This document shows, in pieces, positions 2,096 through 24,431 of a stretch of 38,125 nucleotides of DNA; position 1 is the stretch's first letter, and every line of letters begins with the position of its first letter. The stretch lies in NCBI GenBank assembly GCA_945873585.1, contig CAMCDO010000002.1, positions 1-38,125 on the forward strand, read 5' to 3'. Made by a program: the position numbers and the translations under genes. The notes beneath the pieces were generated by a model that had not been told where the DNA came from, did not search any database, and worked only from the letters and a program-made list of their open reading frames with translations. This DNA is from Verrucomicrobia subdivision 6 bacterium. GTDB lineage: Bacteria; Verrucomicrobiota; Verrucomicrobiia; Methylacidiphilales; Verrucolacustridaceae.

Positions 2096-3337
2096 TTACT
2101 TTTTCTTCTCCTTTTTCTCCTTCTTGTCTTGTTTGGCTGGTGCTGTGACTGCACTGGTCTTGGTAGCACCGACCTTCACGTAGCCTAGTGGCGGAGGAGC
2201 ATCTCCGCCCTCCCCACGCCCTATCGCCTCGATGACTTCCATCACCTCCGGACTAGGGCTTACACCTGCTCGTGTCATATAACTCAAAAGCAGTACCACA
2301 TTGATCTGACGAGCCCGGGGATGATCATGCCCCTTCGCCGTCTTAATGGCCTTCAACCAGTAGGTGTTGGCCTTTTCCTTTTCCCCCGCCTTCTCATAAC
2401 CCTCCGCAATCGCCATCATGGCTTCAGGTTGGAAGAAAAACGCAATGAGATCGGGCTTGGCCGAAGCCAATTCGAGGCAACGCATGGCTTCCGGCTTATC
2501 CCCAGTGACCAGGAGGGCCAACGCTGCATTGCGAAGTCCTAAAGCATACCCTTCCGTGCGGGGATCCAGCGACTGGGCCAGTTCCATTGATTCCCGTGCC
2601 GCCACGGTACCCTCACCCACCAAGCCACTCTCATAGGCTGCGATAGCCAGACGGGACCAACACTCCGTAGCCGTCCCGGGATCAGCGTTGGGAATCAGAC
2701 GCTCAATCAAACCATAAAGATCCACCTTGGCCGCTCGTGTAGCAGTGGGATTTTTGAAATGATAAAGAAGTACCCGAACCGTAGGACTGATAGCTTCTTG
2801 ACGCATTTTTTTATCCTCAGGAATCTTTTCCTGGGAATTACGAGCCAACTGCGCAGCCTGCAGGAGATTAGCTGCGAACTCCTTTTGGGTGGGATCTAAG
2901 ATGGCATCCATACGCGTGCTGGCCTGCGTAACCTTACCCAAACGCATTTCAGCTCCAGCCAAATAGGCGTTCCTTAGTCCCTTATCAGAATCGGTAAGAA
3001 TCCAGGTATCTGCATCGGCCCATCGGATCAACTGCTTGGCCTGGTTCGCATACCCGTTGTTCGCTGCATCCCAAGCCAGCGTGGAGAGTGCCAACCCACG
3101 TTGGGCTCCCCCAATCTCTTGAGCTTCCTTCATGGCGGTCTCATAATCATGAAAATCCCCGGCCTGACGCAATAATTGAATGCCAAGGAGGTTCCGGGCC
3201 TCGTCATTTCCGGAAACAAGCTGGTTCTTGTCCCAGGCCAAAGAAAGGGTTGCGGGTATCTTTCCTTCAGGAAGAGGCGGGCGACAACCAACTGCCAAGA
3301 CCGCAAAAAGCATGACTAAGAGTGTGTATTTATTCAT
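2096..3337 (-). CDS. TPR-like lipoprotein, Lys-rich C-terminus
   Basis: MNKYTLLVMLFAVLAVGC lipobox; alpha-helical repeat sequence (AMRCLELASAKPDLIAFFFQPEAMMAIAEGYEKAGEKEKANTYWLKAI); ends KKEKKEKKK. Confidence 0.7.
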   Translation of the reverse strand: MNKYTLLVMLFAVLAVGCRPPLPEGKIPATLSLAWDKNQLVSGNDEARNLLGIQLLRQAGDFHDYETAMKEAQEIGGAQRGLALSTLAWDAANNGYANQAKQLIRWADADTWILTDSDKGLRNAYLAGAEMRLGKVTQASTRMDAILDPTQKEFAANLLQAAQLARNSQEKIPEDKKMRQEAISPTVRVLLYHFKNPTATRAAKVDLYGLIERLIPNADPGTATECWSRLAIAAYESGLVGEGTVAARESMELAQSLDPRTEGYALGLRNAALALLVTGDKPEAMRCLELASAKPDLIAFFFQPEAMMAIAEGYEKAGEKEKANTYWLKAIKTAKGHDHPRARQINVVLLLSYMTRAGVSPSPEVMEVIEAIGRGEGGDAPPPLGYVKVGATKTSAVTAPAKQDKKEKKEKKK

Positions 3338-3359
3338 TTTGTCTTATCCTGGAAATGAA

Positions 3360-3385
3360 GCGGGCCGGTCTTGCGACCGGCCCGC
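3360..3385 (-). terminator. Strong hairpin, candidate terminator of the upstream secreted-protein gene run
   Basis: gcgggccggtc-ttgc-gaccggcccgc: perfect 11-bp GC-rich stem with 4-nt loop, just downstream of the stop at 3412 and before the gene starting at 3337; only a weak T-run follows. Confidence 0.65.
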
Positions 3386-3411
3386 CTCTTCAAACGTGTT
3401 AGATACGATAA

Positions 3412-6171
3412 TTAGAGAGGCGTGACCCGCACGAAGGTCAGGCCGGAACGGGCCAGATTCTTCGAAATGTTTCCCCCATTACCTGTCTCAGTAGAGAAAG
3501 GCAGGTAAGTTTTGTTATCGCTCGAAACTTCGATGCTGTACTGGATGAGGTTGGCACCGGTGAAGTTGGCGATCACATTTCCGGAACCGTCCCGAGTGAG
3601 GGACACATTAGGAACAACCACATTGTTTTCGGCAAACACGCCCAGCTGATCGGCCAAGGACCAACCCTTTTGCCAATTGAAGTCGCGGAATGCCCCACGG
3701 AAGGTGTTCGCAACAAAGAAGTTGCCTCTGTTAACAGTCACCGAAGGCTGAACGCCCGTAGTAGCTCCTGCAGCGACAGCAATCGAGGCGCGAGGATCCG
3801 TTCCGTTAGAACGTTCCGCGACACCTGCAGCAAGAATTGGATTAACACCGTTAAGACGACCATTCGAGCCTGTGCTGGTCACCACATCCGTGGCAACAAA
3901 TAGGTTGTTGAGACCAGTAGCCAGCATTTTGTCGACTGCAAAACCATTGTTAATAGTGCTACCACCTGACGATGTACGACCGCTCGTCGTGGGGAACATC
4001 GCGGCGCCTGTCGAAGTATAGTTCGCGACAGTAGGAGTAGCTGTAGTTCCACCACCACACTTGGACCAAGTATTATAAGCAATTACCCCAGATGGTTCAC
4101 CAGCAACCGTCGGGACAAACGGGGAAACCACAATCCTGCGACCTGAAGAACTGCTTGTCGCCTGGTCCTGAATCGCGCCTGAGGGAGATTCAACAAAGAC
4201 GGAACTCAGAATCTTACCACCAGCGTTATCTTTGAAGTTGGGACCAGCACGATCCTTAGGGAAAGTGCCTTTGCAGTTATATCCCACACCAATCGCAGTC
4301 ATATTGAAGTAGGTGAACTCCGTTCCAGGATAGGTGGCATTGGATATAGTGTTTGGATCCTCATTTCCGTCATTCTCAGTCAGATTATCCCCAATATTTC
4401 CGGAAGGCCGACCTGTATCCGCGTTGAAGGAGCGAGTATTATTTTGGAGAATGGATAGGAACTGACCATAGCCACGGTATCCCTGATCCGAGTCAAAACA
4501 GTCGTCCCCACCGAAATTCGCCGCGCAATACCTCAGGTTATTATAACCAGCGAACATTTCATAGTCGTCGTCGGCATTACCGAAGACCTCGAGATATTCG
4601 CTGACTGTGGCACTACCGACCGCACCATAGGTAACTCCGTTGATCTCGTTGTTTGGCGAGGCAATAAAACCGCCAAATGAAAACCGGCAGAACCTAATAC
4701 ATCCACTGTTGTCATTAGGGTTGGTACCACCATAAATTCCACCGCTGTAAGTCGCCCGGGCAACGGCATCATCAGCTTCTAGCCCGTAGACCGCACCGTC
4801 GATCGCTTGGAAACCTTCGATGAAGTTAGCACCGATTCCACCTTTCACCGGGATCGCAGATGGATCGGAAACCGCACCTGCTACTGAGCAAGTCGCGGTC
4901 GCTTGGGTAGTTGCGTTCCCATCCGTGATTGTCAGAGTCGGAACTGTCCCCATCGTCAAAACTCCACCTGCGCCTGGAAGCTTGACGACTACCCCATAAA
5001 GAGTGGTAGGAGCTAGCCGCATCTTGACGACTGGCAGAACCGTGCAGGTCGTGCTGCCGACAGCCGCGCCAGGTAACGTATTGTTACCAGTCAGGTAACC
5101 ACTGGTATGAGAATATTTGAAGGCTACCTGAGCGCCGCTAAACCCGTTAGCAGTCAAGAACGGATCTGTGTCCTTTTTGGTAGGCACATTGTACTGCAAA
5201 CCTGCAGTCGCAACAGGAACAGCTGTGATTTCCCAGTAATCGTCACCACCTGTGGCAGTCGCATCAGCAGCGCTTGTGCCCGTACCGGCGAAAACAGTGT
5301 CTATTCCATTGTTGTAAGAGACCGTAGGAATACCAAGAACAGTTTTAGTTGCAGTTCTGGAGCCGTCTGCAGGAGTTGCTACAAATGATGGTTTAGAACC
5401 AGTGAATTTTCCACCATTTGAGATATAGGTAGATGCTACGCCAACTGGATTGAAGAGGGCCTCTAAGCTATAGTTCTTGGCATCGCTAAAAGTAAATGTC
5501 GGATTTTCAGTGTAGCCGGAGCCAGTCGTGTTGATAGCCACCTGCAGATTGCCTGCAGCACCAGTCGGAGCACCGAAACCAACGGGCGCCCTGCCCAAGA
5601 CGATCAAACCACCCCATTGGCCATCGACGCCATGCGCAGTAAAGGAGGAACCGGCTAAAACGGTGTTATACCTCGCAGCTTCAATTGCTATTTCAGCGTC
5701 AGTCTTAGTAACCCCGTTTAACGTGTTGGGAATGGTTTTAATTCCACCGGAAGTGAACGGGTCACCCCATGAGGTAAAGCAAATCGGGGATTCTGCGGTG
5801 CCTTGAGCCACGATTTGTGCGCCTCGGGTAATGATCAGACAGCCCACATCGGCCGGATTAAGCGTGCTCGTACCACCAGTAGTCGAGGGCTCGCCACGGA
5901 TAATGGTTCCTGGCTCAATAGTCAAAGTGGCGGGAGATTCCACAAAGGTCAGGTTGTTCAAGATGTAGACCGTATCTGATGTCCAACGCTGGTCCTGGGT
6001 GATGACGGTAATACGATTGGCGAGAGGGCCGGTTGTTCTAGTAAGGTTACCGTCAATTTCACTGACGTTTTGAAAGTAATACCCGTTCCTGAATGTCCGA
6101 GTATCGGCTGCCTGAGATGAGCCCACCGCTAGGATCAATCCGAGTGTAATTTTGATGAGGTTGTTTTTCAT
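3412..6171 (-). CDS. Large secreted beta-helix-like surface protein (919 aa)
   Basis: Signal peptide MKNNLIKITLGLILAVGSSQAA; motifs NNLTFVESPATLTIEPGTIIRGEPS...LIITRGAQIVAQGTAESPICFTS and SEYLEVFGNADDDYEMFAGYNNLRYCAANFGGDDCFDSDQGYRGYGQFLSIL match a recurrent family of parallel beta-helix surface proteins known from Bacteroidota, Proteobacteria and Verrucomicrobiota. RBS-like AAGGAA before ATG. Confidence 0.75.
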   Translation of the reverse strand: MKNNLIKITLGLILAVGSSQAADTRTFRNGYYFQNVSEIDGNLTRTTGPLANRITVITQDQRWTSDTVYILNNLTFVESPATLTIEPGTIIRGEPSTTGGTSTLNPADVGCLIITRGAQIVAQGTAESPICFTSWGDPFTSGGIKTIPNTLNGVTKTDAEIAIEAARYNTVLAGSSFTAHGVDGQWGGLIVLGRAPVGFGAPTGAAGNLQVAINTTGSGYTENPTFTFSDAKNYSLEALFNPVGVASTYISNGGKFTGSKPSFVATPADGSRTATKTVLGIPTVSYNNGIDTVFAGTGTSAADATATGGDDYWEITAVPVATAGLQYNVPTKKDTDPFLTANGFSGAQVAFKYSHTSGYLTGNNTLPGAAVGSTTCTVLPVVKMRLAPTTLYGVVVKLPGAGGVLTMGTVPTLTITDGNATTQATATCSVAGAVSDPSAIPVKGGIGANFIEGFQAIDGAVYGLEADDAVARATYSGGIYGGTNPNDNSGCIRFCRFSFGGFIASPNNEINGVTYGAVGSATVSEYLEVFGNADDDYEMFAGYNNLRYCAANFGGDDCFDSDQGYRGYGQFLSILQNNTRSFNADTGRPSGNIGDNLTENDGNEDPNTISNATYPGTEFTYFNMTAIGVGYNCKGTFPKDRAGPNFKDNAGGKILSSVFVESPSGAIQDQATSSSSGRRIVVSPFVPTVAGEPSGVIAYNTWSKCGGGTTATPTVANYTSTGAAMFPTTSGRTSSGGSTINNGFAVDKMLATGLNNLFVATDVVTSTGSNGRLNGVNPILAAGVAERSNGTDPRASIAVAAGATTGVQPSVTVNRGNFFVANTFRGAFRDFNWQKGWSLADQLGVFAENNVVVPNVSLTRDGSGNVIANFTGANLIQYSIEVSSDNKTYLPFSTETGNGGNISKNLARSGLTFVRVTPL

Positions 6172-6216: not shown

Positions 6217-6900
6217 TTAGACGGCCTGCCGGCGGAGGCGGAGAGCCCCCAGCCCGAGTGCACCCACTACCAGCAAGGTGGTGACGGAAGGTTCCGGCAC
6301 GGCAGCGGCAGTGATTGAGTTGGCTGTCTGCGTACCGAAGATCAACTGACCATTATCGGCGTCCAAAGCGAAGTCAACGACGGGATCCCCAGTGTTGGCG
6401 AGGAAGTTCATTGCGGAACGAATAAGAATAGCATTGTTGGCCCCAGAAGCGGTCCAATTGGCCAATGCATCGGTCCAAGCGGAGTCTACCGAAGCCAAAG
6501 CCAAGATGTAGGCATCCTGACCGGCAAACTGGCCTGCAGCTACGGTGTAAGAACCAGTGATTCCGTTTCCGACGTTGATATTGGATCCACGGAGACCGTT
6601 ACCGGTATCTCCGACGAGAGAACCATTGCTGATACCAAAACTGGCCAAAGGACGGAAAGAATTCAGCAGGCTGGACCCGCCTGCCTGTACATCAGACAGG
6701 GAAAGGAGGGTACCATTGGCTTCACTGCCAAAATTACCAATCCAAACACGACCAGTTTGGTTAAGAGGACTGAGAGCCGTCGGCAGATTGACTTCGAGAT
6801 CGGCATAGAGAGTGTAACTCATATTGACCGCGTGGGCCGAACCGATGTTGAGGATGAAGCCAGCGACAAGGGCCAGCAATTTGATTGTGTTGTTTTTCAT
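6217..6900 (-). CDS. Secreted PEP-CTERM sorting-domain protein
   Basis: Signal peptide MKNNTIKLLALVAGFILNIGSAHA; C-terminus AVPEPSVTTLLVVGALGLGALRLRRQAV (VPEP + TM + Arg cluster). Confidence 0.85.
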   Translation of the reverse strand: MKNNTIKLLALVAGFILNIGSAHAVNMSYTLYADLEVNLPTALSPLNQTGRVWIGNFGSEANGTLLSLSDVQAGGSSLLNSFRPLASFGISNGSLVGDTGNGLRGSNINVGNGITGSYTVAAGQFAGQDAYILALASVDSAWTDALANWTASGANNAILIRSAMNFLANTGDPVVDFALDADNGQLIFGTQTANSITAAAVPEPSVTTLLVVGALGLGALRLRRQAV

Positions 6901-6926: not shown

Positions 6927-8045
6927 TTACGAATTCTTAGCGCGGAAAAACATTCGGTTTTTCCAAGCATTCACATAATCACCAGAAGAGGTAAAGGTGG
7001 CAGCAAACGTCCCCGTCACACCGGTTTGAACTGTAATAGTGCTCCACGTGGCAGCACTCAGTTCGTTCTTAAACTCAATTGTGTAGCTAGCGTTGGGATT
7101 GCCGACAAAATTGTGAATGACCGAAGTCTGGCCAGCATTTAAAACGGGCGTGCCTAACGATGCCACGCGTAACGTTGTCGAGGCATATGCGGTAAGCGGG
7201 CGAACTTCGGTGGCGAGTGCGTAATTGGAGTTCCCTGCCTGAGAGGCGGTGATCTCGACAGGACCAGCTCCAACAATTGTGACAACATTCCCTTGGACCG
7301 TGGCCACAGCCAGATTGGATGAACTATAAGTCACAGGCAAATCGCTCGACGCCGTGGCGCCCAAGGTGAACGAATCACCAACGCTCTTGGAGGGCAGTGT
7401 GCCAAAGGTGATTGTTTGAGGCAAAGTGGCCGCACCTGGAGCGGAAGCGAGTTGAACCCCGCTTTGAGTAACCGAACCTACCAGCGCTGCCATATTAAAG
7501 GTGAAGGTCTCGGTGCTACCGACTGTGGTGTCTATGGCAATGGTTTCTCCAGGTAGCCGCAGGGGATCCCTGGGCATGTAAAAATCTGTTCCCTCTGGTA
7601 GGGCCCAAGTGAAAATTCCTAGCTGGTCAGAACCGCTTGTCATCACAAGGAAAGCCCTGTTTAGAGCCAAGGCATTATCAATTTCATCTATTACTGTAAC
7701 CCCATCGGAATCGTAAACGTAAGTCGTGTCTACAGCGGTATAATCACCATCAAATAAATAGGAGTTTCCACCCGTGTAGGAGAGCTGAGCTATACTTATG
7801 AAACTGCTTGAGAGATTTGAGCGGTTGATTGCACTCCAGTTGGTTGGGACAGAACTGAACCACCCCAACTGGAGGGTTGTTGCCCCCGAGGTAGACAAGA
7901 CTGTCCCTGTCGAACTCGTAGCGCCAAATGCATTTTCCCAATCAACAAGCAGTTCTATGTTGGCTGCTTTGGCACCCGACAAAGGACAGAAAAAACTTAA
8001 GATGGCGTAGAGCGCTATCCGGGATTTCTTTCTAAGATTTGTCAT
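6927..8045 (-). CDS. Secreted protein with bacterial Ig-like domain
   Basis: Signal peptide MTNLRKKSRIALYAILSFFCPLSGAKAA; Ig-like segment QTITFGTLPSKSVGDSFTLGATASSDLPVTYSSSNLAVATVQGNVVTIVGAGPVEITASQAGNSNY. Confidence 0.7.
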   Translation of the reverse strand: MTNLRKKSRIALYAILSFFCPLSGAKAANIELLVDWENAFGATSSTGTVLSTSGATTLQLGWFSSVPTNWSAINRSNLSSSFISIAQLSYTGGNSYLFDGDYTAVDTTYVYDSDGVTVIDEIDNALALNRAFLVMTSGSDQLGIFTWALPEGTDFYMPRDPLRLPGETIAIDTTVGSTETFTFNMAALVGSVTQSGVQLASAPGAATLPQTITFGTLPSKSVGDSFTLGATASSDLPVTYSSSNLAVATVQGNVVTIVGAGPVEITASQAGNSNYALATEVRPLTAYASTTLRVASLGTPVLNAGQTSVIHNFVGNPNASYTIEFKNELSAATWSTITVQTGVTGTFAATFTSSGDYVNAWKNRMFFRAKNS

Positions 8046-8086: not shown

Positions 8087-9079
8087 TTATTTGGTGATCA
8101 CCTGAGGCGCAAAGGCGATATTTTCCCTGACCTTGTTGACGATCAGGAATGCATCCCCTACTCCGAGAATCTTGTCGTCCGAAACAGCGCCCCCTGTGGA
8201 TTTCACAAAGTTACTTCCGTTGTTGTGGTAGGAAACATACCTGCCCCCCTCAAGGAAGCGTAGGCTGTCCGCACCAGCTGCGTTAGCGCCCTTGGTGAGA
8301 TACTTGGCCAAGTCTGATTGCGCCAAAGTAACCGCAGCGGGATATGGATTGGCAACGATCGTGCCGCTGGTTCCTTCAAGAGTGATCTGGCTACGGGCTC
8401 CACGATATTCACCCACCAAGTTGATGGTCTTGGCCAAGTTGGCCTTAAAGGCAAAGCCGGATCCGAGCGTAACTCGTACATGTGCGCGATTTAGACCAGT
8501 AGCACCGCGGTTGCTCTCCAAACGCCATCCGAAATTTCTCTGGTAGAAAAAGCGATTCAGAAGACCACTCGAGGAAAGCACGGAAATAACGTCAGATACT
8601 CCTACCGCGCTTCCGCTTTGCAACCCGGCTCCTCCTGGGAACAAGGAATCCAAGGTATGATCCAAGCGGAGGACAAAAGTGGTATCGGCGGTGAGCGCAG
8701 GCAAACTTCCAATTACGGTCGCCGTGCTTCCGCTGAAAGCAGTTACCTGCTTGATCAGACCGGTGGAGGGACCGCTTGTGAATTCCACAATGTAGTGGTT
8801 ATCCGATGCTGGGGCCAGTTCAGCCGTGCCCACTTCGCTCACTGCGGAATAGGAGCCGAAAGTATTCACACCAAACGCCGTGAAGCTAGTGGCTCCGGAA
8901 ATGACATCAGAGGCTACTTCGCCCTTGAGGAGGACTGGGCGGGCTAGGAATACGCCGACAAGTTTCGTTTGGCCCGCGGCTATGGCCACGGGGAGGTTGA
9001 GGTAAGCAGTGCCGACATCGGCAGCCTGCAAGGGCAACGCGAGGGCGGATAGTACGAGGATAAGGTTACGAATTTTCAT
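8087..9079 (-). CDS. Secreted protein of a verrucomicrobial repeat family (TIGR02597-like); paralog of 11812..12870
   Basis: Start MKIRNLILVLSALALPLQAA (ATG at 9079) chosen over 9133. Shared blocks with 11812..12870: VGVFLARPVLLKGEV, HTLDSLFPG, SDVISVL...GWRLESNRG. Confidence 0.65.
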   Translation of the reverse strand: MKIRNLILVLSALALPLQAADVGTAYLNLPVAIAAGQTKLVGVFLARPVLLKGEVASDVISGATSFTAFGVNTFGSYSAVSEVGTAELAPASDNHYIVEFTSGPSTGLIKQVTAFSGSTATVIGSLPALTADTTFVLRLDHTLDSLFPGGAGLQSGSAVGVSDVISVLSSSGLLNRFFYQRNFGWRLESNRGATGLNRAHVRVTLGSGFAFKANLAKTINLVGEYRGARSQITLEGTSGTIVANPYPAAVTLAQSDLAKYLTKGANAAGADSLRFLEGGRYVSYHNNGSNFVKSTGGAVSDDKILGVGDAFLIVNKVRENIAFAPQVITK

Positions 9080-9457
9080 ATTGGTGTTTTCTCCTTGGTT
9101 TATTTTTGTTGAAGCCAAAATCTGTTTCGACATGCAGAAAAAGTACTCAGTAATATTTTTTCCGCTACTGGTTTATTGTAACGTTTGTGTGACAAAAATA
9201 CTGCCCAAGTGGAAATATAATCATTGATTGGCAATGACTTGCGTTTTTTTATCTAAAAATGGCATATTTTCGTCACACAAGACTGACCTACTTTTGTCTC
9301 AGTCTCTTGCTGAAAACGCCGAAAAGTTCCGATCTTTACAAATTTCTAATGATGCCTTTTATCCACGCTGAATGAGTCCGTTCGTAGGATTCAAAATGAC
9401 ATCATATTGTCACAAGCCACCCTTTGACCTTTCGGAAAATGAGACTTACCTAACTAC

Positions 9458-11815
9458 ATGCCTATGTCCGCTTCCATTTTTAGTTTACCTTCCTTTTTCC
9501 TGTCCCCAAGGATAAGAAAGAAAAAAACCTGTTTGTTTTTCTCCCTCTTGGGAGATGGCATTAAAGCCATCGGAATGGTAGTTGGCCTGTTGGGCATGAC
9601 CTCTTCCCTCCAAGCGATCGAAAAAGTCACGATCACCGGTACTGCTGGGATTGCGGATGAAAGTGGAAACTCGCTGGCCACCAGTTCCATCATCCGCGTC
9701 GGCGTTTTGAACGATTCAACCAGCACAACGACCCCGCTGACCGATGCTCAGATTGCAAGTTTACTGAACGGCTCCCAGGCGGAGGTCCGCACCAATCTGG
9801 ACAATCTTTTTGCCACGGGAAAATCCACCCTTTGGGGATCCACCACCGTGAATACGGTTTTTAATGGCGCTGCCATTGCCAACCTCACGAAAACCTCCAC
9901 CACGGTTTTTGACGGAAATCCTATTTATATTCTGGTTTTCAACACCACCTCGATCGCAACCGCCACCCAGGTCGGTGTTTTTGTTTACAATGACGGGGTC
10001 TCCTCCCTTGTCTTTCCTGCCGTGGGAGCCGGATCTTTGGCCTCCGCCGATCTCGAATTCGACGGCAATGATTTCGATGGTCCGAATATGCTCCCCTGTT
10101 TGGGAAGCATCGGAGCGGACGGCATTTACCGCTTGGCCACGATCGGAAATGGGTATGGCATCGTCAGTTCACTCACGGCCAGCGCCACCCGCAATAACGC
10201 CTTCAGCTACTTCATCACCGCCAACAACGGGGTCACTTCCTTCAATGCTACTAGCCTGCCCACCGGGCTTTCCATCAGCACCACAACGGGAGAAATCAGC
10301 GGCACCCCCACGGCCGACGCCGGGACTTACAACATCCTTCTCACTGCCACCGGCCCCCTCGGCGCTCGCACCGCCACGCTGGTTCTTACCCTCAGCGACC
10401 CTGCCGGAGACACCCCTTCGATCACCAGCAGCTTGGCCAACCAATCGACGGTGGCCGGTGTCGCTTACGCCGGGTACACCATCACGAGCGACAACCCCCC
10501 CAGTCTCTATTCCGCGACCGGTTTGCCGACGGGCATGTCCTGTGCCGCCGGCACAGGGGTGATTTCCGGAATTCCCAGCCAAACGGGAACTTTCAATGTG
10601 ACCATACGGGCCACTAATGTCTCCGGAACGGGCTCCTCCTCCTTTTCCCTCACGGTAACCGCCCCTACCCTTAGCTTTACCAATGCGTCCCTGAGCCTCA
10701 ACTCCGCAGGCACAACTGTCGCTCCCACCGGATCGGGAGGGTTTGTTCCCACGGCCTACACTCTCGGAAGCGCCCTGCCGACAGGATTATCCCTCTCTCC
10801 AACAACCGGTATCATTTCCGGCACTCCCACTGCGATCGGTACAACAACCGTGACGGTCAATGGAACGGCCAATGGAGTCACCGCCTCGGGAACGATCACC
10901 ATCTCCGTCAACAGCCAAACCCCCACGCTGAACAGTGCCACCACGGTGACGGGATATGTGGGCACCCCCATCACCTACACCCTGACAACAACCGCGAATG
11001 TCAGCGCCGTAGCCCCTGATTCCTACTCCATTCTGGGATCCAGTGCTGTCCCTGTCTCTTGGTTGACTGGAAAGTTGAATGCCACCACCGGCGTGTTCCA
11101 GGTCACTCCGACTGAATCCGGGGTTTTTGCCGCACAGTTCCGCGCCAACAATGCTCTGAATGCCGCTGGTTTGGGCGGTGGAGACAGCCCCATCCTTACC
11201 GCCACCTTCACGATCGAAGTCAATCCTCCCACCTTAGTGGATAGCACGAATGCCTCCACTTATGTCACGTTGGCCGGCACCGACTATGTCTCCATGGCCG
11301 CCTACAGTACAAAAACCTTTACCATCAATTATAACGGGGCAACCACAACCTCCTTCTCAAATTTACCGGATTGGCTCTCGGGAACGACTTCCGGTCTAAA
11401 TGCTTCCGTTTCCGGACGCCCCACCCAGCCGGGAACCTACACCATCCGTAAAACGGTCTCCAACATCGGTCGCGGAGGAGCTTTGCAAAGTGTCAGCCGT
11501 GACCTCGTGATCACCGTGGTCGGAAGTTCGCCCAGCGTGGTGGGATCCGGCTTTGTAACTCCTCCCGCCGGGCAAGTCGGCCAAGCGTACCGGCAATACA
11601 TCACCGCCAGCGGGGCTACTCGTTCGGCCGCCGACCCTGTATCTTTTAATGCGTCGGGGCTTCCTCTGGGTCTCTCCTTCGCCACGGCCGCCGACCGTCA
11701 GATGGGTCTGATTACCGGCACCCCCACCCAAGCCGGTACCTACGCAGTGAAATTTTACATCGCCAACCCCAAGGGTTACATCACCCAGAACGCCACCCTC
11801 ACAATTCTCCCATGA
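9458..11815 (+). CDS. Secreted protein with tandem putative-Ig (He_PIG-like) repeats (785 aa)
   Basis: Repeats such as SLPTGLSISTTTGEISGTPTADAGTYNILLTATG, GLPTGMSCAAGTGVISGIPSQTGTFNVTIRATN, ALPTGLSLSPTTGIISGTPTAIGTTTVTV, GLPLGLSFATAADRQMGLITGTPTQAGTYAVKFYIAN. Confidence 0.85.
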   Translation: MPMSASIFSLPSFFLSPRIRKKKTCLFFSLLGDGIKAIGMVVGLLGMTSSLQAIEKVTITGTAGIADESGNSLATSSIIRVGVLNDSTSTTTPLTDAQIASLLNGSQAEVRTNLDNLFATGKSTLWGSTTVNTVFNGAAIANLTKTSTTVFDGNPIYILVFNTTSIATATQVGVFVYNDGVSSLVFPAVGAGSLASADLEFDGNDFDGPNMLPCLGSIGADGIYRLATIGNGYGIVSSLTASATRNNAFSYFITANNGVTSFNATSLPTGLSISTTTGEISGTPTADAGTYNILLTATGPLGARTATLVLTLSDPAGDTPSITSSLANQSTVAGVAYAGYTITSDNPPSLYSATGLPTGMSCAAGTGVISGIPSQTGTFNVTIRATNVSGTGSSSFSLTVTAPTLSFTNASLSLNSAGTTVAPTGSGGFVPTAYTLGSALPTGLSLSPTTGIISGTPTAIGTTTVTVNGTANGVTASGTITISVNSQTPTLNSATTVTGYVGTPITYTLTTTANVSAVAPDSYSILGSSAVPVSWLTGKLNATTGVFQVTPTESGVFAAQFRANNALNAAGLGGGDSPILTATFTIEVNPPTLVDSTNASTYVTLAGTDYVSMAAYSTKTFTINYNGATTTSFSNLPDWLSGTTSGLNASVSGRPTQPGTYTIRKTVSNIGRGGALQSVSRDLVITVVGSSPSVVGSGFVTPPAGQVGQAYRQYITASGATRSAADPVSFNASGLPLGLSFATAADRQMGLITGTPTQAGTYAVKFYIANPKGYITQNATLTILP

Positions 11816-16024: not shown

Positions 16025-16798
16025 ATGTGCCGAAGGGGTGTGTGGATCGCTTGGCTAACGCTTTTTTCAGCGGTCTCTTGGGGTGCGGACACTGGCGGAG
16101 TCGATACCGCTCAAAATGACGCGGCCAATGCCCATCCTTTCGTAACCCCGCCTCCTTTGTCGGATCCCAATGCGGAACTGGTGGACCGCCCCCTCCCTGG
16201 AACAAAATCCGAGGCTGACGGATCTTTTGCCGGTGAAAATGGCGGGGCTTTGACCCCCTACTACGTTCGCACCGGGATCGGCTTGAGTTTCATTACCAAT
16301 GTGGATTACCCGGATTTCGGCATTACTGGCAGCGTCGACATGGCTCCGGGTTTTGCGACGGGGGTGATGTTGGGTACACAGTTCCACGACAACATCGCCT
16401 TCGAAATCGAGGGCGGCCTGCTTTACAATACGGTTTATTCCAATCAGGCGGGAAATATCACAGCGACCAATATGGCGCAGATCACCAATGTTCAGCTGTT
16501 TCAGGTTCCGATGATGGGGAATTTCATTTTCCGTACCGATCCCCTAGGAGCCACCCGGATTCGCCTGGTCGCAGGAGGTGGCATGGGAGGCATTTTTCGC
16601 CAAGTCTTTGTCACTGGAACTCCGAACAACTACACCGAAAGCCAGACCTTGGCTGCGTATCAAGGGTTTGGCGGAATTCAGATCAATCCTGGAGAGCCCG
16701 ATCTGATGGTGGATGTTCAGTTTCGCTATTTGAATTCGATCACAGGACAGTCGGTTCCCTCCATGTCGATCATGGGGACAGTGACGATTCGCTTTTGA
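16025..16798 (+). CDS. Outer-membrane beta-barrel protein, paralog of 16795..17643 and 25504..26307
   Basis: ATG at 16025 (MCRRGVWIAWLTLFSAVSWGAD) preferred over TTG at 15989; barrel-like alternating pattern, APGFATGVMLGTQFHDNIAFEIEGGLLYNTVY; ends with aromatic VTIRF. Confidence 0.7.
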   Translation: MCRRGVWIAWLTLFSAVSWGADTGGVDTAQNDAANAHPFVTPPPLSDPNAELVDRPLPGTKSEADGSFAGENGGALTPYYVRTGIGLSFITNVDYPDFGITGSVDMAPGFATGVMLGTQFHDNIAFEIEGGLLYNTVYSNQAGNITATNMAQITNVQLFQVPMMGNFIFRTDPLGATRIRLVAGGGMGGIFRQVFVTGTPNNYTESQTLAAYQGFGGIQINPGEPDLMVDVQFRYLNSITGQSVPSMSIMGTVTIRF

Positions 16799-17643
16799 GC
16801 CAAGGTGTGAATGTGAGAAGGTATGCGAGGGGATTCAGGGGTTCAGGAGTTAAGGGGTTAAGGTTTTTAAAGTCGTGCTTACTGATCATGATGTTTTTCT
16901 GTGGATCGAATCTGTTTGCCCAGAGATTGTCCCTGACCGACGTGCAGGCCCAGCCGGTCACGGGTCCAGGGCCAGGCCTGCGGATTGCACTCGGTGGCAC
17001 GGTCAATTCAGACATGTCGGTCGCCCAACGGGACACCCGAGATTATCCTCAGGCGAATATCAGCCCTCTCTTTTCGAATCAGGTGCAGTTCAATGGAACA
17101 GTCAGTTATGAGTCGATCGGTTTCAACCCAGGTTTCCGTTTCGATTTTGCCCCAGGATACCGCCTGAACGAGTGGATCAATTTCGAGTTCGAAACTGGTT
17201 GCATCTACAACACAGTCGAGTCGTACACCATCACGGGAAATGGGACTTTCACAGGGGTTGGTGGCAATCCGAATCTCAATGGAACGATGAAGATGGATGC
17301 GGAAGGATATCTCTTGCAGGTGCCACTGATGGTGAACGTCGAGTTTTCTTATCCGATCGGGGATGGATGGAGACCATTTGTGGGTGCAGGCGGAGGGGGC
17401 ATGTTCCAAAAACTCACTGTCAGCACCATCTCGGGAACGATCAACTATCAGGGGGACTTTAATCAGTCGAACTTCATGGGAGCGTGGGAGGCCTTCCTTG
17501 GGTGCGGATACCAGGTGGCACCAGGTTTCGATGTGTCGATCGCGTATCGTGTCGATGGGGTGCTCAGCCCAGAATTTGGGGGCTACACCATGCAGAATTT
17601 TTACACCCAAGCGGCCGAATTTGAGATGAATTGGAGGTTTTGA
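16795..17643 (+). CDS. Outer-membrane beta-barrel protein (start uncertain)
   Basis: FNPGFRFDFAPGYRLNEWINFEFETGCIYNTVESYTI; hydrophobic leader FLKSCLLIMMFFCGSNLFAQ; C-terminal EMNWRF. Only TTG/GTG starts are available upstream of the signal-like segment. Confidence 0.7.
   Translation: MSQGVNVRRYARGFRGSGVKGLRFLKSCLLIMMFFCGSNLFAQRLSLTDVQAQPVTGPGPGLRIALGGTVNSDMSVAQRDTRDYPQANISPLFSNQVQFNGTVSYESIGFNPGFRFDFAPGYRLNEWINFEFETGCIYNTVESYTITGNGTFTGVGGNPNLNGTMKMDAEGYLLQVPLMVNVEFSYPIGDGWRPFVGAGGGGMFQKLTVSTISGTINYQGDFNQSNFMGAWEAFLGCGYQVAPGFDVSIAYRVDGVLSPEFGGYTMQNFYTQAAEFEMNWRF
16834..16865 (+). repeat. 8-bp tandem array, 4 units (ttcagggg ttcaggag ttaagggg ttaaggtt)
   Basis: Direct reading; lies within the 5' part of ORF 16795..17643. 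Confidence 0.8.
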
Positions 17644-18007: not shown

Positions 18008-18997
18008 ATGGCTCATTTCATTCTTAGGGCTATGGTTTTGCGTATTTTTTTATTGGGTCTTATTTTCTTGGTGGCTTGTCCTATTCAAGCCCAAGAGAAC
18101 TCAGGCCGGCTGACCGTTGCCCCTTCCAGCGTAACTAACGCACCGTCGGCCACACCAACCCAGCCAGCTGCCACAAAAGCCCCAGAACCAACATCGAATA
18201 TGGTGGATGCTCCACTTCCAGAAATTGCCAACCAACCCAATGTCATCACCCCATCCCAGACCTCAGGAACCGATGGTCCTAAGGGTCCGCGTGATGGCCA
18301 CTGGTACGCATCGGTATTTGGCGGGGCCATGGTTGAGCAGTTTCAAGTCAATGCAACTTCAACTGCGATTGGCCAACAACCTCTGGATCAAGGGCCGAGT
18401 TCAAAGTTGGGGTCCTACGCAGGTTTCAAGGTGGGGTACGATTTCGCAGTGCGCGACGTCCAACTAGCATTCGGGGGTCCTACTCCAATGCGTACATCCA
18501 TGGAGTTGGAAGGAAGCTATTTAGGAACCTACGAGAAAATTCCTCTTTATAACGTCAGCACAGGTAGTCCGACAGTTGGTTATGAAACCTACAGTCTGAA
18601 CGCCTATAATGTCATGTTAAATGGCTTGGTTAAATTCGAAGACCTTCCTGTCACCCCTTACTTTGGCGGTGGGGTCGGCGTTGTTTTTATGTCCGCCTTA
18701 AATCACAAAATGGACGTAAATGGCATCGTCAACGGGACTCCGACAACTTACTCCACTACTTCCTCTACAGGAAACAACACTAGCCTAGCCCTTCAGGCCA
18801 TAGTTGGACTGGAAAAAGAAATCTATGACAACCTCACTCTCTTTGTGGAATATAAATTTCTTGCCTGGCTCGATGTGAGATTTGCCTACGGCAGCGAACC
18901 AACCCTTAGCACCCCTCCGACGCAAGGCGGATCAAACTCACAGAACGATTTTACCGCCCAGCAACTTCTATCAGCTGGTGTGAAATATAGCTTTTAA
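18008..18997 (+). CDS. Outer-membrane beta-barrel protein, first gene of the TonB operon
   Basis: Signal peptide MAHFILRAMVLRIFLLGLIFLVACPIQAQ; Pro/Thr-rich linker; GHWYASVFGGAMVEQFQ...TPYFGGGVGVVFMSALNHKM...LQAIVGLEKEIYDNLTLFVEYKF...LLSAGVKYSF. Confidence 0.7.
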   Translation: MAHFILRAMVLRIFLLGLIFLVACPIQAQENSGRLTVAPSSVTNAPSATPTQPAATKAPEPTSNMVDAPLPEIANQPNVITPSQTSGTDGPKGPRDGHWYASVFGGAMVEQFQVNATSTAIGQQPLDQGPSSKLGSYAGFKVGYDFAVRDVQLAFGGPTPMRTSMELEGSYLGTYEKIPLYNVSTGSPTVGYETYSLNAYNVMLNGLVKFEDLPVTPYFGGGVGVVFMSALNHKMDVNGIVNGTPTTYSTTSSTGNNTSLALQAIVGLEKEIYDNLTLFVEYKFLAWLDVRFAYGSEPTLSTPPTQGGSNSQNDFTAQQLLSAGVKYSF

Positions 18998-19002: not shown

Positions 19003-19905
19003 ATGAATCCCACTGTTTCCTATTTATTTTCTTCCAAGCTCGCAAAGCGATCGCCAGTGAGCCGGTTAAGAACACTCGTTCTTTGTCGTGCCACCTTGTT
19101 TTTCATTTATTCGCTCTCCTGCTTGACCCTTCGTGCAGCTGAAACGAGTTCCCCTACAAACACCCCCACCCCAGCCCCACCCGCGATGAAGGTTACCAGC
19201 GAGACTGCCCCCCTCATCGAGGCCACTCGTGAAACCTTGACCAAATGGGTTGAGACCAAACAACTCATCTCCAAAGAAAAGTCGGAGTGGGCATCCGGCA
19301 AGGACATCTTGGAAGATCGCGTCCGCCTAGCCGAAGCTGAAACCGCTACCGTTCGGGAGAAGTTAAAGGAAATCTCCGTAGCCGTGGCAGAAGCCCAAAA
19401 GAAACGAGACGAGCTTGCGGCTCAAACCGACAAACTAAAAGCCACCGCTGAAAAATCGAAGGCCATGGTCATCGCTGCAGAAAAGAAGCTCCGCCCCCTC
19501 CTTCCCCAACTGCCCGAGCCTCTCCGTGAAAAGCTCAAGCCGATCATTGCGCGCTTTCCTGAAGACTCGGAGAAATCGACCGCTTCCCTGGCGGAACGCC
19601 TCCAAAACGTCTTAGGTATTCTTGATCAAGCCAGCGCCTTCAACTCCACCGTGGCTAGCGTGAAGGAGCTCCGCACCTTTCCCGATGGCACACGTGCCGA
19701 GGTCACCACCGTTTATCTTGGCCTTAGCCAAGCCTACTATACCAACCGCGAAGGCACCTTAGCGGGAATCGGTCACCCCGGACCCGATGGCTGGGTCTGG
19801 AAACCTGACAATACCAACGGAAAGAAAATCCTCCTCGCAGTGCACTATCTTGAAGGAAAGGAAAAGGGGACTACCTTTATAGATCTCCCAGTAAAAATAC
19901 AATGA
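19003..19905 (+). CDS. DUF3450-like periplasmic coiled-coil protein (TonB-system component)
   Basis: Signal/TM, long coiled coil (KEKSEWASGKDILEDRVRLAEAETATVREKLKEI), C-terminal VTTVYLGLSQAYYTNREGTLAGIGHPGPDGWVWKPD typical of DUF3450; located directly before exbB. Confidence 0.75.
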   Translation: MNPTVSYLFSSKLAKRSPVSRLRTLVLCRATLFFIYSLSCLTLRAAETSSPTNTPTPAPPAMKVTSETAPLIEATRETLTKWVETKQLISKEKSEWASGKDILEDRVRLAEAETATVREKLKEISVAVAEAQKKRDELAAQTDKLKATAEKSKAMVIAAEKKLRPLLPQLPEPLREKLKPIIARFPEDSEKSTASLAERLQNVLGILDQASAFNSTVASVKELRTFPDGTRAEVTTVYLGLSQAYYTNREGTLAGIGHPGPDGWVWKPDNTNGKKILLAVHYLEGKEKGTTFIDLPVKIQ

Positions 19906-21812
19906 GTACAAATTTTCAGCGTTCGTCCTTACGTTATCAACCGAAGGTGATTTCGAATTTTGGAATTCGGATTTCGCAATGGATCCTCTCAAGCCTCTTG
20001 TCTGCCTTGCTGATTTCTACCTTCAGCGCGTTCGCGGAGCAATCGCCCGATGCCAATGTCCAACTCCGAGCCCCCAAAGCGGAGTTTGTTGCACCTCCAT
20101 CGGACAAGCCTTCAACCCCCGAGCCTGCCCCTGCCCCTACGATCCTTCCTCCCGCTCCTCCCAAGGCGACTGATATCCTTGCAACCGCATCCACAAAAGC
20201 CCGAGCCGACCTGGATGCAGCCTTAAAAGAGCTCACCGCAACTCGGGAAAAGATTTCTTCGGAAAAACTGCCCCTCAGCAAAAAACTTTCTTTGGCCGAG
20301 GACGACTTGGCTCTTGCCCGAAAGGAGCTGGACCTTGCCCAGCGAGCCCGAGACATGAAAAATCTCGATCAATCCTCACTGAAGGCGGAAATCAAACAGC
20401 GCGAAGAGGAAAACACCTACATGCTCAACCTGCTGAACGAATTCGGCAGAAATTTCGGGGAGAAAAGCATTCATATTTCAGAACGTGCAGGTCACCGCGA
20501 GAAGCTCGACCTGGCCAAGGCCACCCACGAAAACAGCAACGCATCCCACGAGGATAAGTACAAAGCTTCCTTCCGCGTCGTCGATGCCGCCCTCACCCGT
20601 ATCGAAGACCTTCTCGGTGGCCATAGCTACCCTGGGGTGGCTCTTGATGCCCAAGGGGGACTAGTCGAGGGCAAGTTTGCCCAGATCGGCCCCATGGTCC
20701 TCTTCTCCTCTGCCGACGGCTCGGTTGCAGGCTGGGCCTCCGAGGCCAAGGGATCTAAAGAAACCGTTCTGAAAGGGGCGGAACACTCGAAAATCTTTGG
20801 CACTGCTTTCGCCTCCCTCATGGCTGGAGGGGAAGCGGTCATTGCCTCTGATTTCACTATGGGACAGGCCCTAAGAAATTACGGGAACAAAAATTCGATC
20901 ATCCGTACCTTCATTCACGGCGGGCCCATCATGTGGCCCCTGCTCTTTTCCGCAATCGTGGCTGCGATTGTTTCTCTCGAACGGTCTCTGTTTATTGTTT
21001 CGGAAAAACGGCGCCAAAATCCTGAGCAGGTTGAAAAGATCTTCACTTTGGTGGAAAGTGGCAACCAGCCGATGGCGATCCAAGTCGCCAACGGCTCCAC
21101 CGATTTCGTGGCTCGAGTCCTCGGCTTCGCCCTTGCCAACGCCAACCTTTCTATTAGCCAAGCCATCAACAAGGCGAGTGCCATCGAACTCAAAAGGTTT
21201 GGCCGTGGTCTACCCATCCTCGACACCATCATCACCGCCGCCCCCCTTCTCGGACTGCTCGGCACGGTGACCGGCATGATGAACACCTTCAGCATGATGG
21301 GTGGGGATGAGCTGGGAGCTCCTACCGCCATCACAGGCGGTATCGCCGAAGGTCTGATCGCGACCGCATTCGGTCTGTTGATCGCCATCACCTGCTTGTT
21401 CCCGAACAACTATCTCAATGCCCGAATCGAATCGGCCCAACACGAAATGGAAGATGCCGGCCGCCGACTCGAACTAATGCTCATGGCAGAAAAAGCCTTC
21501 GAAAGAGCCAGTCACTCCCATGGAGGGGATCATGGGAATCCTCCTCCCGCCCCCCGTTCGACTCCGCCTCCATCGCCTATCCCGCCATCCTCACCCTCAA
21601 CCGCAGCCACCCGCATGCCCGTGGCTCCTCCCAGCTCGGTTGTACCCCCAGCAACCCCCCCGCCCTCTCTTCCAGCGGTGACTCCGCCAACTCCCCGCCT
21701 CCAAGCCAAACCTGCGATCCCCGCGAATAAACCCGCCGCTGGGAAAATTGGCCTCAAGCTTCTTTCCCTCTTTAAGCCCAAATCCAGCGGCCCCTCCACA
21801 GGAAAGGCCTAA
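19902..21812 (+). CDS. exbB: MotA/TolQ/ExbB proton-channel protein with long periplasmic coiled-coil N-terminus (TtpC-like) and Pro-rich C-terminal tail
   Basis: GGPIMWPLLFSAIVAAIVSLERSLFI...LPILDTIITAAPLLGLLGTVTGMMNTFSMM...ITGGIAEGLIATAFGLLIAITCLFPNNYL. ATGA overlap with the upstream gene. Confidence 0.9.
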   Translation: MSTNFQRSSLRYQPKVISNFGIRISQWILSSLLSALLISTFSAFAEQSPDANVQLRAPKAEFVAPPSDKPSTPEPAPAPTILPPAPPKATDILATASTKARADLDAALKELTATREKISSEKLPLSKKLSLAEDDLALARKELDLAQRARDMKNLDQSSLKAEIKQREEENTYMLNLLNEFGRNFGEKSIHISERAGHREKLDLAKATHENSNASHEDKYKASFRVVDAALTRIEDLLGGHSYPGVALDAQGGLVEGKFAQIGPMVLFSSADGSVAGWASEAKGSKETVLKGAEHSKIFGTAFASLMAGGEAVIASDFTMGQALRNYGNKNSIIRTFIHGGPIMWPLLFSAIVAAIVSLERSLFIVSEKRRQNPEQVEKIFTLVESGNQPMAIQVANGSTDFVARVLGFALANANLSISQAINKASAIELKRFGRGLPILDTIITAAPLLGLLGTVTGMMNTFSMMGGDELGAPTAITGGIAEGLIATAFGLLIAITCLFPNNYLNARIESAQHEMEDAGRRLELMLMAEKAFERASHSHGGDHGNPPPAPRSTPPPSPIPPSSPSTAATRMPVAPPSSVVPPATPPPSLPAVTPPTPRLQAKPAIPANKPAAGKIGLKLLSLFKPKSSGPSTGKA

Positions 21813-21817
21813 GCAAA

Positions 21818-22240
21818 ATGGCAGGCGGAGGCGGCGGTGTTTCTAGAGGAGGGCGAAAAAAAGCCCGGATCGAAATCATTCCTCTGATCGACATCATGTT
21901 CTTCCTTCTCGCCACCTTCGTGATGGTTTCCCTTTCCATGGTCAAGAACGAGGGAGTCTCCGTCATGCTCCCCGGCTCCAGCACCTCCGAGGCGAAGGAG
22001 AAGGACGACAGCATCACCACCGTTTCCGTCGCAGAAAGCGGCGACGTCTACATCAATCAGGAAAAAGTTACGATGAGCCAACTCCCTCTCCGCCTCTCTT
22101 CGATCAAAGCCTCAAACCCAGATCCGAAATTTACCCTCAATGCCGACGCCCGTGCCAATTTCGACAAAGTGGTCGTTGTCCTGGATGAAATCCGGAAGCT
22201 CGGTATCACCAAAATCGGTATCTCCACCAAAACTCGATAA
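21818..22240 (+). CDS. exbD: ExbD/TolR biopolymer transport protein
   Basis: KKARIEIIPLIDIMFFLLATFVMVSLSMVKNEGVSVMLPGSST; single TM and C-terminal VVLDEIRKLGITKIGISTK. Confidence 0.93.
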   Translation: MAGGGGGVSRGGRKKARIEIIPLIDIMFFLLATFVMVSLSMVKNEGVSVMLPGSSTSEAKEKDDSITTVSVAESGDVYINQEKVTMSQLPLRLSSIKASNPDPKFTLNADARANFDKVVVVLDEIRKLGITKIGISTKTR

Positions 22241-23028
22241 TGAGTCCTGCCTCTCCTCCTCCACTTCCGCGGCCTACCCCCCCCGCCTCGCGGTCTCCCA
22301 ATTTTCAGACACGGAAGGAAGCCAATCTTTATCCCCTCTGCATGGCCGCCATCTTGGGCTTGGCCCTCTTCTTGATCGTCGTCGTAGGTGGAATCCTTTT
22401 CCCCGTCTCTAATTTTGAGAAGAAGAAGAAAGTCGAAGATATTCAAGAGGTCGATATTTCCAACATCAAAAAGCCAGACACCGAGCCCCCCAAAGAAGAC
22501 GTCGAGCAGGAGAAAGAGCCACCCCCTCCAGCCCCCATTATGGAAAATGTCAATGTGGCCGCCCCCCAGATGGATGACGCTCCCGCCCTCGCCCCGATGA
22601 GCTTGAGCGATCTCGAATCCGCCCTCGCCCCCGGTGGTGGTGGCGGGATGTTTGGTGGGGGAGGAGGCTTTCAATCGGGTCGCATCGGCGGGAAAGGCGG
22701 CCCCGGAGGAACAGGCACCGACATGGATCAAGCCTTCTCCATGGCCGACCTCGATCAAAAACCGCGCGCCGTTTACCAGCCCGCCCCAACCTATCCAGCC
22801 GCCCTCCGCTCTCGAAAAATTGATGGCGTGGTCACAGTAATATTTGTCGTCGATGCCAGTGGTCGAGTCGCTAATGCCAAGGTGGAAAAAAGTTCCGACC
22901 CTGCGTTCGATAAACCTGCCCTCGATGCGGTGCGCAAATGGAAGTTTGAACCCGCAATGAAAGAGGGCCGAAAAGTTTCGGCTAAAATGCGTGCCCCCAT
23001 TCGCTTCGACACCAAGGCCTCTTCATGA
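22240..23028 (+). CDS. tonB: TonB energy transducer
   Basis: N-terminal TM, Pro/Glu linker, Gly-rich segment, C-terminal YPAALRSRKIDGVVTVIFVVDASGRVANAKVEKSSDPAFDKPALDAVRKWKFEPAMKEGRKV. TAATG overlap with exbD. Confidence 0.93.
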   Translation: MSPASPPPLPRPTPPASRSPNFQTRKEANLYPLCMAAILGLALFLIVVVGGILFPVSNFEKKKKVEDIQEVDISNIKKPDTEPPKEDVEQEKEPPPPAPIMENVNVAAPQMDDAPALAPMSLSDLESALAPGGGGGMFGGGGGFQSGRIGGKGGPGGTGTDMDQAFSMADLDQKPRAVYQPAPTYPAALRSRKIDGVVTVIFVVDASGRVANAKVEKSSDPAFDKPALDAVRKWKFEPAMKEGRKVSAKMRAPIRFDTKASS

Positions 23029-24431
23029 AAAGAATTCTCCTTCTTTCCTTGGCCTACACCCTTCCCCTGTTTGCTGAGCCAGCAGATCCCTCGGCCCACG
23101 ACCCCAAGCCCGCCCCCGGCTCCCCTGGCGCTACTCGTGCTGCGGTCATGCAAATCTTCGCCGATCCCGACTTCCGCAAACGCGCTATCGAAAACTTTAA
23201 TATCTCCAGCGATCTCGAACCCAAACTTCCCGCCACCGAGAAAGATGCCTTTACCAAGATCGCCGACCTTGCCGCTACCGACGTAGTCAAAGCCTACTTC
23301 GAATTAAAATCTATGGTTACTGCCGATTCGAGTGCCGTGTTCGATTTCACTCTCGGATCAATCGCCTATCAGCTTAACCGACCAAACGAAGCCGCTAAAT
23401 ACCTTGAGAGTGCTACTCGGAAATTCCCCAACTATCTTCGTGCTTACAAAAATCTCGGCTTAATTCAACTTCAACAGGGCCGAACCGATGATGCCATCAA
23501 GAGTCTGACCCGCTCAATCGAGCTGGGTGGAGGAGACGGCAACACCTTCGGCCTCCTCGGTACCGCCTACGTCTCGAAAGAAAATTTTGTCTCAGCCGAG
23601 GGAGCTTTCCGCAATGCTCTCCTTCTTCAGCCTACGACCCCCGAGTGGAAGCTGGGTCTGGCCCGCTGCATCTTCCGCCAAAACAAATACGCCGAGGCCG
23701 TCTCACTGATGAACGACCTTATCGAACGGCAACCCGACAAACCTGAATTTTGGCTTCTCTTAGCTAGCGCCCACCTCGGACTCAAAGAGCCTATCGCCGC
23801 AGCCACCTGCTACGAAATGATCGACCGTTTAGGAAAGTCCACCCCCGACACATTGACCTCCTTGGCCGACATCTACATCCAAGAATCGAACTATCCCTTG
23901 GCAGTGGAGACCTACCTGCGTGCCCTCGATCTCAAACCTGGCCAGAAGATTGATCGCCCCCTTCGGGCTGCCGAGGTGTTGAATGGTAAGGGCGCGCCAG
24001 CAGAGGCGGGCATCCTTTTGGAAAGATTGAAGATTTATGCAGGCAACAATATCGATGCGGACAAAAAGAAGAAGATGTTGAAGCTGGAAGCCAAAATCGC
24101 CTCGGCCCAAGGCAAAACAGCCGAATCCGCTGCTGTCTTGGAGCAGATTCTCAAAGAGGATCCTCTGGACGGAGATGCCTTACTACTCCTTGGGCAACAC
24201 TATGCGAAAAGCAACCAGCCCGAAAAAGCGATCTTCCTCTTTGAGCGTGCGGAGGGGATGGAGCAGTTTGAGGCGGATGCTAAGGTTCGCCATGCCCAAG
24301 TGCTCGTGACCGCAGGCAAATATGACGAAGCCGTCCCCCTCCTAAAACGTGCCCAGGAAATCAAAGCACGGGACAGCATCGCCCGCTACCTCGAACAAAT
24401 CGAACGCCTCCTCAAAACCCGAGCCAAGTAA
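23025..24431 (+). CDS. Secreted TPR-repeat protein, TonB-system associated
   Basis: Signal peptide MKRILLLSLAYTLPLFAEP; repeated TPRs (PNYLRAYKNLGLIQLQQGRTDDAIKSLTRSIEL...). ATGA overlap with tonB. Confidence 0.88.
   Translation: MKRILLLSLAYTLPLFAEPADPSAHDPKPAPGSPGATRAAVMQIFADPDFRKRAIENFNISSDLEPKLPATEKDAFTKIADLAATDVVKAYFELKSMVTADSSAVFDFTLGSIAYQLNRPNEAAKYLESATRKFPNYLRAYKNLGLIQLQQGRTDDAIKSLTRSIELGGGDGNTFGLLGTAYVSKENFVSAEGAFRNALLLQPTTPEWKLGLARCIFRQNKYAEAVSLMNDLIERQPDKPEFWLLLASAHLGLKEPIAAATCYEMIDRLGKSTPDTLTSLADIYIQESNYPLAVETYLRALDLKPGQKIDRPLRAAEVLNGKGAPAEAGILLERLKIYAGNNIDADKKKKMLKLEAKIASAQGKTAESAAVLEQILKEDPLDGDALLLLGQHYAKSNQPEKAIFLFERAEGMEQFEADAKVRHAQVLVTAGKYDEAVPLLKRAQEIKARDSIARYLEQIERLLKTRAK

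Follow-up and report, generated by a model that had tools for sequence, protein, structure and literature searches.

Why should a TonB-dependent receptor (TBDT), a set of secreted proteins and a complete TonB motor lie together within about 22 kb of a verrucomicrobial genome, and in which direction would they move their substrate across the outer membrane? The locus spans positions 2,096 to 24,431 of a 38,125-nucleotide stretch, hereafter the window, from a Verrucomicrobia subdivision 6 bacterium (assembly GCA_945873585.1, contig CAMCDO010000002.1). The assembly, our G000, comprises 1.41 Mb in 113 contigs and is 80% complete; the window lies on its contig C2. Other genomes compared, such as G001, G003 and G006, carry G numbers and loci carry L numbers, and the genus set has n = 13. 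A first-pass annotation had proposed one locus for TonB-powered export, display or uptake, with export as reasonable a hypothesis as uptake. We find that the receptor and one secreted protein, a 919-residue beta-helix protein, belong to families that form a real, conserved functional unit, and that the locus is probably a phosphate-starvation uptake module, for which we infer both substrate and direction. The outer-membrane passage of scarce phosphate or organic phosphorus is poorly known in many bacteria.

The receptor and the beta-helix protein form a conserved pair

The window has both genes on one strand of a single cassette, separated by 6.7 kb. An order-level search recovered receptor and 919-residue homologues in nine genomes each, eight of them common to both, and gene maps show all or part of the cassette in G001, G006, G015, G017, G020, G007 and G011, as well as in the outgroup family member G024. 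As a guard against search bias, Pseudomonadota were sampled evenly: of 299 genomes, 46 carry the beta-helix family, and 40 loci were read. A same-strand TBDT stands at all 40, within 600 bp at 39, compared with none of 40 control windows taken elsewhere in the same genomes. Across our other collections, a TBDT of the same class is found at 65 of 69 evaluable beta-helix loci (same strand at 62). Mirror-tree distance matrices of the two families correlate with r = 0.77 (56 loci) and r = 0.90 (39 loci), values reached in 0 of 1,000 permutations each, although this correlation owes part to shared species history. The grouping of receptor and beta-helix genes is far beyond chance. The view of the first-pass annotation that this is one functional locus is borne out by these counts, and routine separation of receptor and secreted protein, which it had named as the outcome that would overturn it, is not what the genomes hold.

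The same counts bear on the simplest alternative, that fast-evolving surface antigens came by chance to sit between a receptor and a TonB operon. The secreted proteins are about 30–60% identical between species whose motors are 85–94% identical, and in G007 the cassette has no motor nearby, both as ordinary neighbours would predict. However, the adjacency relative to controls, the shared strand with short gaps and the mirror trees refute this explanation for the TBDT and beta-helix protein. The refutation does not extend to the immunoglobulin-like (Ig) and PEP-CTERM-like proteins, but for the locus as a whole we regard chance assembly as very improbable.

Phosphate genes and a shared promoter site

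Phosphate genes recur around the pair. Locus L114 reads pstSCAB-phoU-TBDT-beta-helix on a single strand, pstB-phoU stands beside the pair at L064 and L112, and PhoB/PhoR-like and Pit (PHO4) genes lie near it in many Bacteroidota. In the congener G006, phoB-phoR-pstCAB-phoU begins about 2.2 kb past the TPR lipoprotein gene of the cassette, and in the congener G007 a PhoB-like gene adjoins the receptor. Phosphate genes occur near 25 of 78 beta-helix loci, compared with 1 of 40 control windows, these controls being from Pseudomonadota only.

The window itself carries a Pho-box-like site in the promoter common to both divergent secreted-protein operons, about 45 bp upstream of the Ig gene. The site is a perfect match to the pattern TGNCAYNNNATTGTCAC, which occurs in 10 of the 13 genus genomes (0 for the pattern read backwards) and directly upstream of pstS in six species (G001, G003, G006, G009, G010 and G011). 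Its 17-mer is identical to the pstS-promoter sites of G003, G006, G009 and G010; allowing up to two mismatches, it is found three times in its own genome (in the window, at the genome's own pstS, C26:6450, and at a 1,496-residue secreted Ig protein; control, 0), and at three mismatches the expectation for the window is 0.06 matches. A position weight matrix (PWM) also finds a strong site at the cassette promoter of G001, G006, G007, G011, G015 and G020. With its two TGTCA-like half-sites 11 bp apart, the motif resembles the Escherichia coli Pho box. Scanning the window by itself for an E. coli-type Pho box gave nothing above shuffled sequence, and the signal is meaningful only because of the congeners' pstS promoters. 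On this basis the cassette appears to be under phosphate control through the Pho-box-like site. It had been remarked that no nutrient link is visible here, which is correct for the genes of the 22 kb, but such a link does show in their promoter, elsewhere in the genome and in the relatives.

The 1,496-residue protein (L206:5395-10045, on G000:C17) combines He_PIG domains with a Shr-like heme-protein-interacting domain and, given the Pho-box-like site before its gene, is likely to be another phosphate-regulon member. A further Pho-box-like site, TGCCATAAGATTGTCAC, recurs in five species (L207:5243 on G000:C63, and G002, G003, G010 and G012); in G000 it is flanked by another TIGR02597-like gene and an amino-acid-kinase gene. 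The window also encodes a purple-acid-phosphatase-like metallophosphoesterase with a signal peptide (35241-36470, minus strand), 11 kb from the motor, which is a possible phosphate link; no Pho-box-like site was found for it.

A beta-helix partner with an invariant acidic cluster

No Pfam or NCBIfam model matched the 919-residue protein, and AlphaFold applied to it directly, with 8 sequences, gave a poor model (predicted local distance difference test, pLDDT, 42.5). A 438-residue relative was modelled confidently as all-beta from 64 sequences (pLDDT 91.4). The best PDB matches of this model, with low TM-scores of about 0.2–0.3, are enzymes, tailspikes and adhesins of the right-handed beta-helix type, and therefore give the fold class only; PDB sequence searches with the receptor and the beta-helix protein returned nothing informative beyond the N-terminal domain and plug. 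Continuity in tblastn and hidden Markov model searches links the window protein to the Bacteroidota and Pseudomonadota members, and relatives also appear, in a genome-wide scan, among Verrucomicrobiota, Bacteroidota, Ignavibacteria, Rhodothermales, Zixibacteria, Marinimicrobia, Acidobacteria and Gammaproteobacteria. Many Pseudomonadota members are of double length (900–980 residues), mostly with two tandem beta-helix units (L136-L141, L144-L150, L156, L160, L163, L168 and L169).

Six acidic residues of the 438-residue relative (Asp226, Asp227, Glu230, Asp247, Asp248 and Asp251) are invariant in the 64 sequences, which come from several phyla, and correspond to D534, D535, E538, D556, D557 and D560 of the window protein. 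The cluster could form a metal-binding or catalytic site on neighbouring coils. The first-pass annotation had counted five secreted non-enzymatic proteins; more exist, as the 372-residue protein and the TPR lipoprotein of the same operon must be added, and in view of this cluster 'non-enzymatic' is not established.

The fold neighbours of the model include pectinases and alginate or pectate lyases, which brings in the possibility that the same pair imports a ligand other than phosphate, such as a glycan, a metal chelate or a protein, with phosphate control merely a stress cue. Lidbury et al. proposed plant cell-wall binding for FI–FIII, of which FII is discussed below (PMC8115612), and Vibrio motors of the DUF3450 type serve siderophores (PMC6957404). 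Nevertheless, FI–FIII are induced by phosphate depletion and reported to be tightly repressed under nitrogen and iron limitation (PMC8115612), and both the Pho-box-like site and the recurrent pst, pho and Pit neighbours across many phyla argue against it. We therefore consider import of a non-phosphate ligand unlikely, and rank an iron or siderophore role for the motor lower because of the phosphate context.

The route by which the partner reaches the surface bears on export, the reading in which a motor-energized TBDT would carry the 919-residue and other secreted proteins over the outer membrane in the manner of Oar and PopC in Myxococcus. The tight linkage and co-inheritance of receptor and secreted protein would suit such a route, as would the absence of a lipobox and of a known sorting tail from the 919-residue protein. 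Oar shares the CarboxypepD_reg N-terminus of the window receptor and lies near Ton genes (PMC6434023), and ElpS of Caulobacter crescentus crosses the outer membrane independently of its type II secretion system (T2SS) by a route that is unknown (PMC2996285). The surface routes of the beta-helix partner, however, differ by lineage: at least 7 of 64 relatives bear a type IX secretion tail, and a lipobox is present in most forms from Pseudomonadota and in several from Bacteroidota, whereas the window form has a plain signal peptide; about 6 of 40 Pseudomonadota members also have no lipobox, so that not every member of the family is anchored in this way. Export is disfavoured because these routes vary while the TBDT is constant. 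Moreover, PopC is a protease with no signal peptide, is not a beta-helix protein and has no phosphate link (PMC6434023), whereas the window proteins do have signal peptides; the parallel with Oar/PopC is a weak one. ElpS production continues after deletion of its neighbouring receptor gene CC_0171, surface display in that mutant not being reported (PMC2996285), and phosphate regulation fits nutrient uptake. Given the Pho-box-like site, the pst and pho clusters in relatives and the varied routes of the partner, export no longer ranks level with uptake, and we think it improbable.

Gene layout, receptor and motor

All genes named in the first-pass annotation are open reading frames at their positions (Table 1). 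Pfam and NCBIfam searches confirm the families of the receptor, the Ig protein and the motor, with weak matches for the TIGR02597-like pair and the PEP-CTERM-like tail. The genes from 9133 down to 2096 (TIGR02597-like protein a, the 372-residue protein, the PEP-CTERM-like protein, the 919-residue protein and the TPR lipoprotein), with gaps of 26–74 bp, suggest a leftward operon. The Ig gene and TIGR02597-like gene b form a rightward pair (9458-12870), with which the receptor gene is convergent. The position of the TPR lipoprotein gene beside the beta-helix gene is kept within the genus and at other loci of the Planctomycetes–Verrucomicrobia–Chlamydiae (PVC) group. Searches of Pfam and NCBIfam gave no family match for the 372-residue protein, and Pfam none for the barrel at 15989-16798. 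The barrel at 16795-17643 is 88–93% identical in most congeners and 78% in G007. No exosortase was found in the assembly, at its 80% completeness. A search for a C-terminal sorting domain in common with the genus's other secreted proteins found none. Bactofilin genes (1-1498) at the left edge of the window adjoin the cassette but lie outside it.

Table 1. Features of the locus, in window coordinates
Feature	Position	Strand	Evidence
TPR lipoprotein, 413 aa, lipobox VGC; ends the leftward operon	2096..3337	-	weak TPR_2
Secreted beta-helix protein, putative ElpS/FII type, 919 aa, Sec signal peptide, no lipobox	3412..6171	-	family acidic residues; fold of relative
Small secreted protein, PEP-CTERM-like tail	6217..6900	-	partial NCBIfam PEP-CTERM matches, all below cut-off
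Secreted 372-aa protein	6927..8045	-	same-position homologues in G011, G015, G020
TIGR02597-like secreted protein a; opens the leftward operon	8087..9133	-	TIGR02597 E=1e-5, below cut-off; position conserved
Pho-box-like site TGACATCATATTGTCAC, two half-sites 11 bp apart, divergent promoter	9397..9413	+	congener pstS sites
Secreted 785-aa protein, four He_PIG Ig domains	9458..11815	+	PF05345 1.8e-38
TIGR02597-like secreted protein b; 4 bp overlap with Ig gene	11812..12870	+	TIGR02597 E=2e-7, below cut-off
TBDT, 984 aa, CarboxypepD_reg N-terminus	12894..15848	-	PF13620, PF07715, PF00593
Small predicted outer-membrane barrel	15989..16798	+	conserved between receptor and motor
Small outer-membrane barrel	16795..17643	+	PF13505 8.8e-7
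Small barrel upstream of motor	18008..18997	+	weak Surface_Ag_2; conserved position
DUF3450 protein (TtpB-type)	19003..19905	+	PF11932 5.6e-29
TtpC/ExbB-like proton-channel protein, long N-terminal extension	19902..21812	+	PF01618 1.8e-25, residues 417-517
ExbD	21818..22240	+	PF02472 1.9e-27
TonB	22240..23028	+	PF03544 5.9e-24
TPR protein (TtpD position)	23025..24431	+	TPR_16 7.8e-38

The receptor comprises CarboxypepD_reg (PF13620, 2.5e-16), Plug (PF07715) and barrel (PF00593) domains; its best NCBIfam subfamily is TIGR01782 (245 bits, below the cut-off of 310). A TonB-box-like EELVV lies at residues 117–121, and E115, E117, E118, V120 and V121 are invariant in the alignment. The motor is a single rightward run (19003-24431) of DUF3450, MotA/TolQ/ExbB, ExbD, TonB_C and TPR proteins, in which the 636-residue TtpC/ExbB-like protein is followed directly by ExbD, with no separate ExbB between them. 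An additional ExbB is present at the PVC loci L116 (Pontiella), L126 and L128, and the source genome has a second TonB gene on contig C104. Directly after the motor, a single protein (24503-25102) combines a Sel1 repeat with a GspG-like C-terminal part, a position kept in G001 and G006; the motor of G024 is adjoined by an additional protein that matches TonB_C twice (L048:3873-4664). Within the genus, the G000 motor is most like those of G001 and G006 (85–94%), whereas its TBDT, beta-helix protein and Ig protein have their closest counterparts in G015 and G020 (the Ig protein equally in G017); receptor and secreted proteins have thus been exchanged together, independently of the motor.

A model for phosphate-starvation uptake

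We favour uptake, which is in keeping with both the phosphate control and what TBDTs generally do. Under phosphate scarcity, PhoB would turn on both secreted-protein operons, and the 919-residue protein would reach the cell surface or the medium, where it may capture or process a phosphorus-containing ligand. The TBDT would take this ligand from it and import it with energy from the DUF3450-TtpC-ExbD-TonB-TPR motor, after which PstSCAB, encoded elsewhere in the genome (C26), would move phosphate over the inner membrane. We take the Ig, TIGR02597 and PEP-CTERM-like proteins to be co-regulated accessories.

Several observations weigh against this model. The study of the Caulobacter counterpart found no change in intracellular phosphate, and no uptake was shown (PMC2996285). 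Among the Pseudomonadota loci, phosphate genes lie close to only 6 of 40, compared with 1 of 40 controls, a difference that is borderline alone. The Pho-box match was first noticed through a congener and the PWM was trained partly on cassette-like sites, unlike the 17-mer search, which starts from a sequence that four congeners carry upstream of pstS. Finally, the PWM finds no strong Pho-box-like site upstream of the TBDT or the motor in the window, and these may be expressed independently of the secreted-protein operons, as reported for CC_0171.

The model nonetheless gives a functional lead for TIGR02597 proteins and reduces the question of uptake versus export to a simple mutant test.

Comparison with known systems

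In Caulobacter crescentus, ElpS (CC_0170) is a surface protein made under phosphate starvation beside the TBDT CC_0171; Le Blastier et al. (2010) noted the co-occurrence of the two families and found ElpS surface-exposed without its T2SS (PMC2996285). The window resembles this system in combining a secreted protein under putative phosphate control with a TBDT, a likeness that comes through gene order rather than a direct ElpS sequence match. Locus L151 has the Caulobacter-type order, beta-helix lipoprotein-TBDT-GspC-GspD-GspE-GspF (GspC, GspD and GspF confirmed by Pfam). Unlike ElpS, the window protein has 919 residues, no lipobox and no T2SS neighbours, and its locus also holds a dedicated motor along with TIGR02597, Ig and PEP-CTERM-like genes.

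In Flavobacterium johnsoniae, PUSIV pairs the FII lipoprotein Fjoh_0546 with the TBDT Fjoh_0545 in a PhoBR operon strongly induced by phosphate depletion (Lidbury 2020, PMC8115612). It shares with the window family a pectin-lyase-fold secreted protein and a CarboxypepD_reg TBDT, and phoBR neighbours in a PUSIV-like arrangement are found at L073, L079, L085 and L088. The Bacteroidota forms differ in being lipoproteins of about 450 residues with no adjacent motor genes. Synteny and fold, rather than FII's own sequence, suggest that the 919-residue family is homologous to FII, and ElpS/CC_0171 and FII/Fjoh_0545 would be the published counterparts of the window pair.

The motor follows the order of the Vibrio TonB2/TonB3 system (TtpB/DUF3450, TtpC, ExbB2, ExbD2, TonB2 and TtpD), in which TtpB2, encoded by the first gene, and TtpD2, by the last, are essential for siderophore use through TonB2 (PMC6957404). 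The window likewise runs from DUF3450 through TtpC-like, ExbD and TonB to a further last gene, but with no separate ExbB2, and the Vibrio system serves siderophores.

More tentatively, the pair could be a distinct cross-phylum, bipartite outer-membrane machine for phosphorus uptake, functionally parallel to SusCD but built on a beta-helix partner that carries the invariant acidic (metal-binding or catalytic) site; Pfam matched no SusD-family lipoprotein among the window proteins. The verrucomicrobial form would then possess a TonB motor of its own, lacking a separate ExbB, and would have recruited TIGR02597 and TPR subunits. Our comparison ties this verrucomicrobial locus to the scattered reports from Caulobacter and Flavobacterium, with a receptor and secreted partner that stay paired over many phyla.

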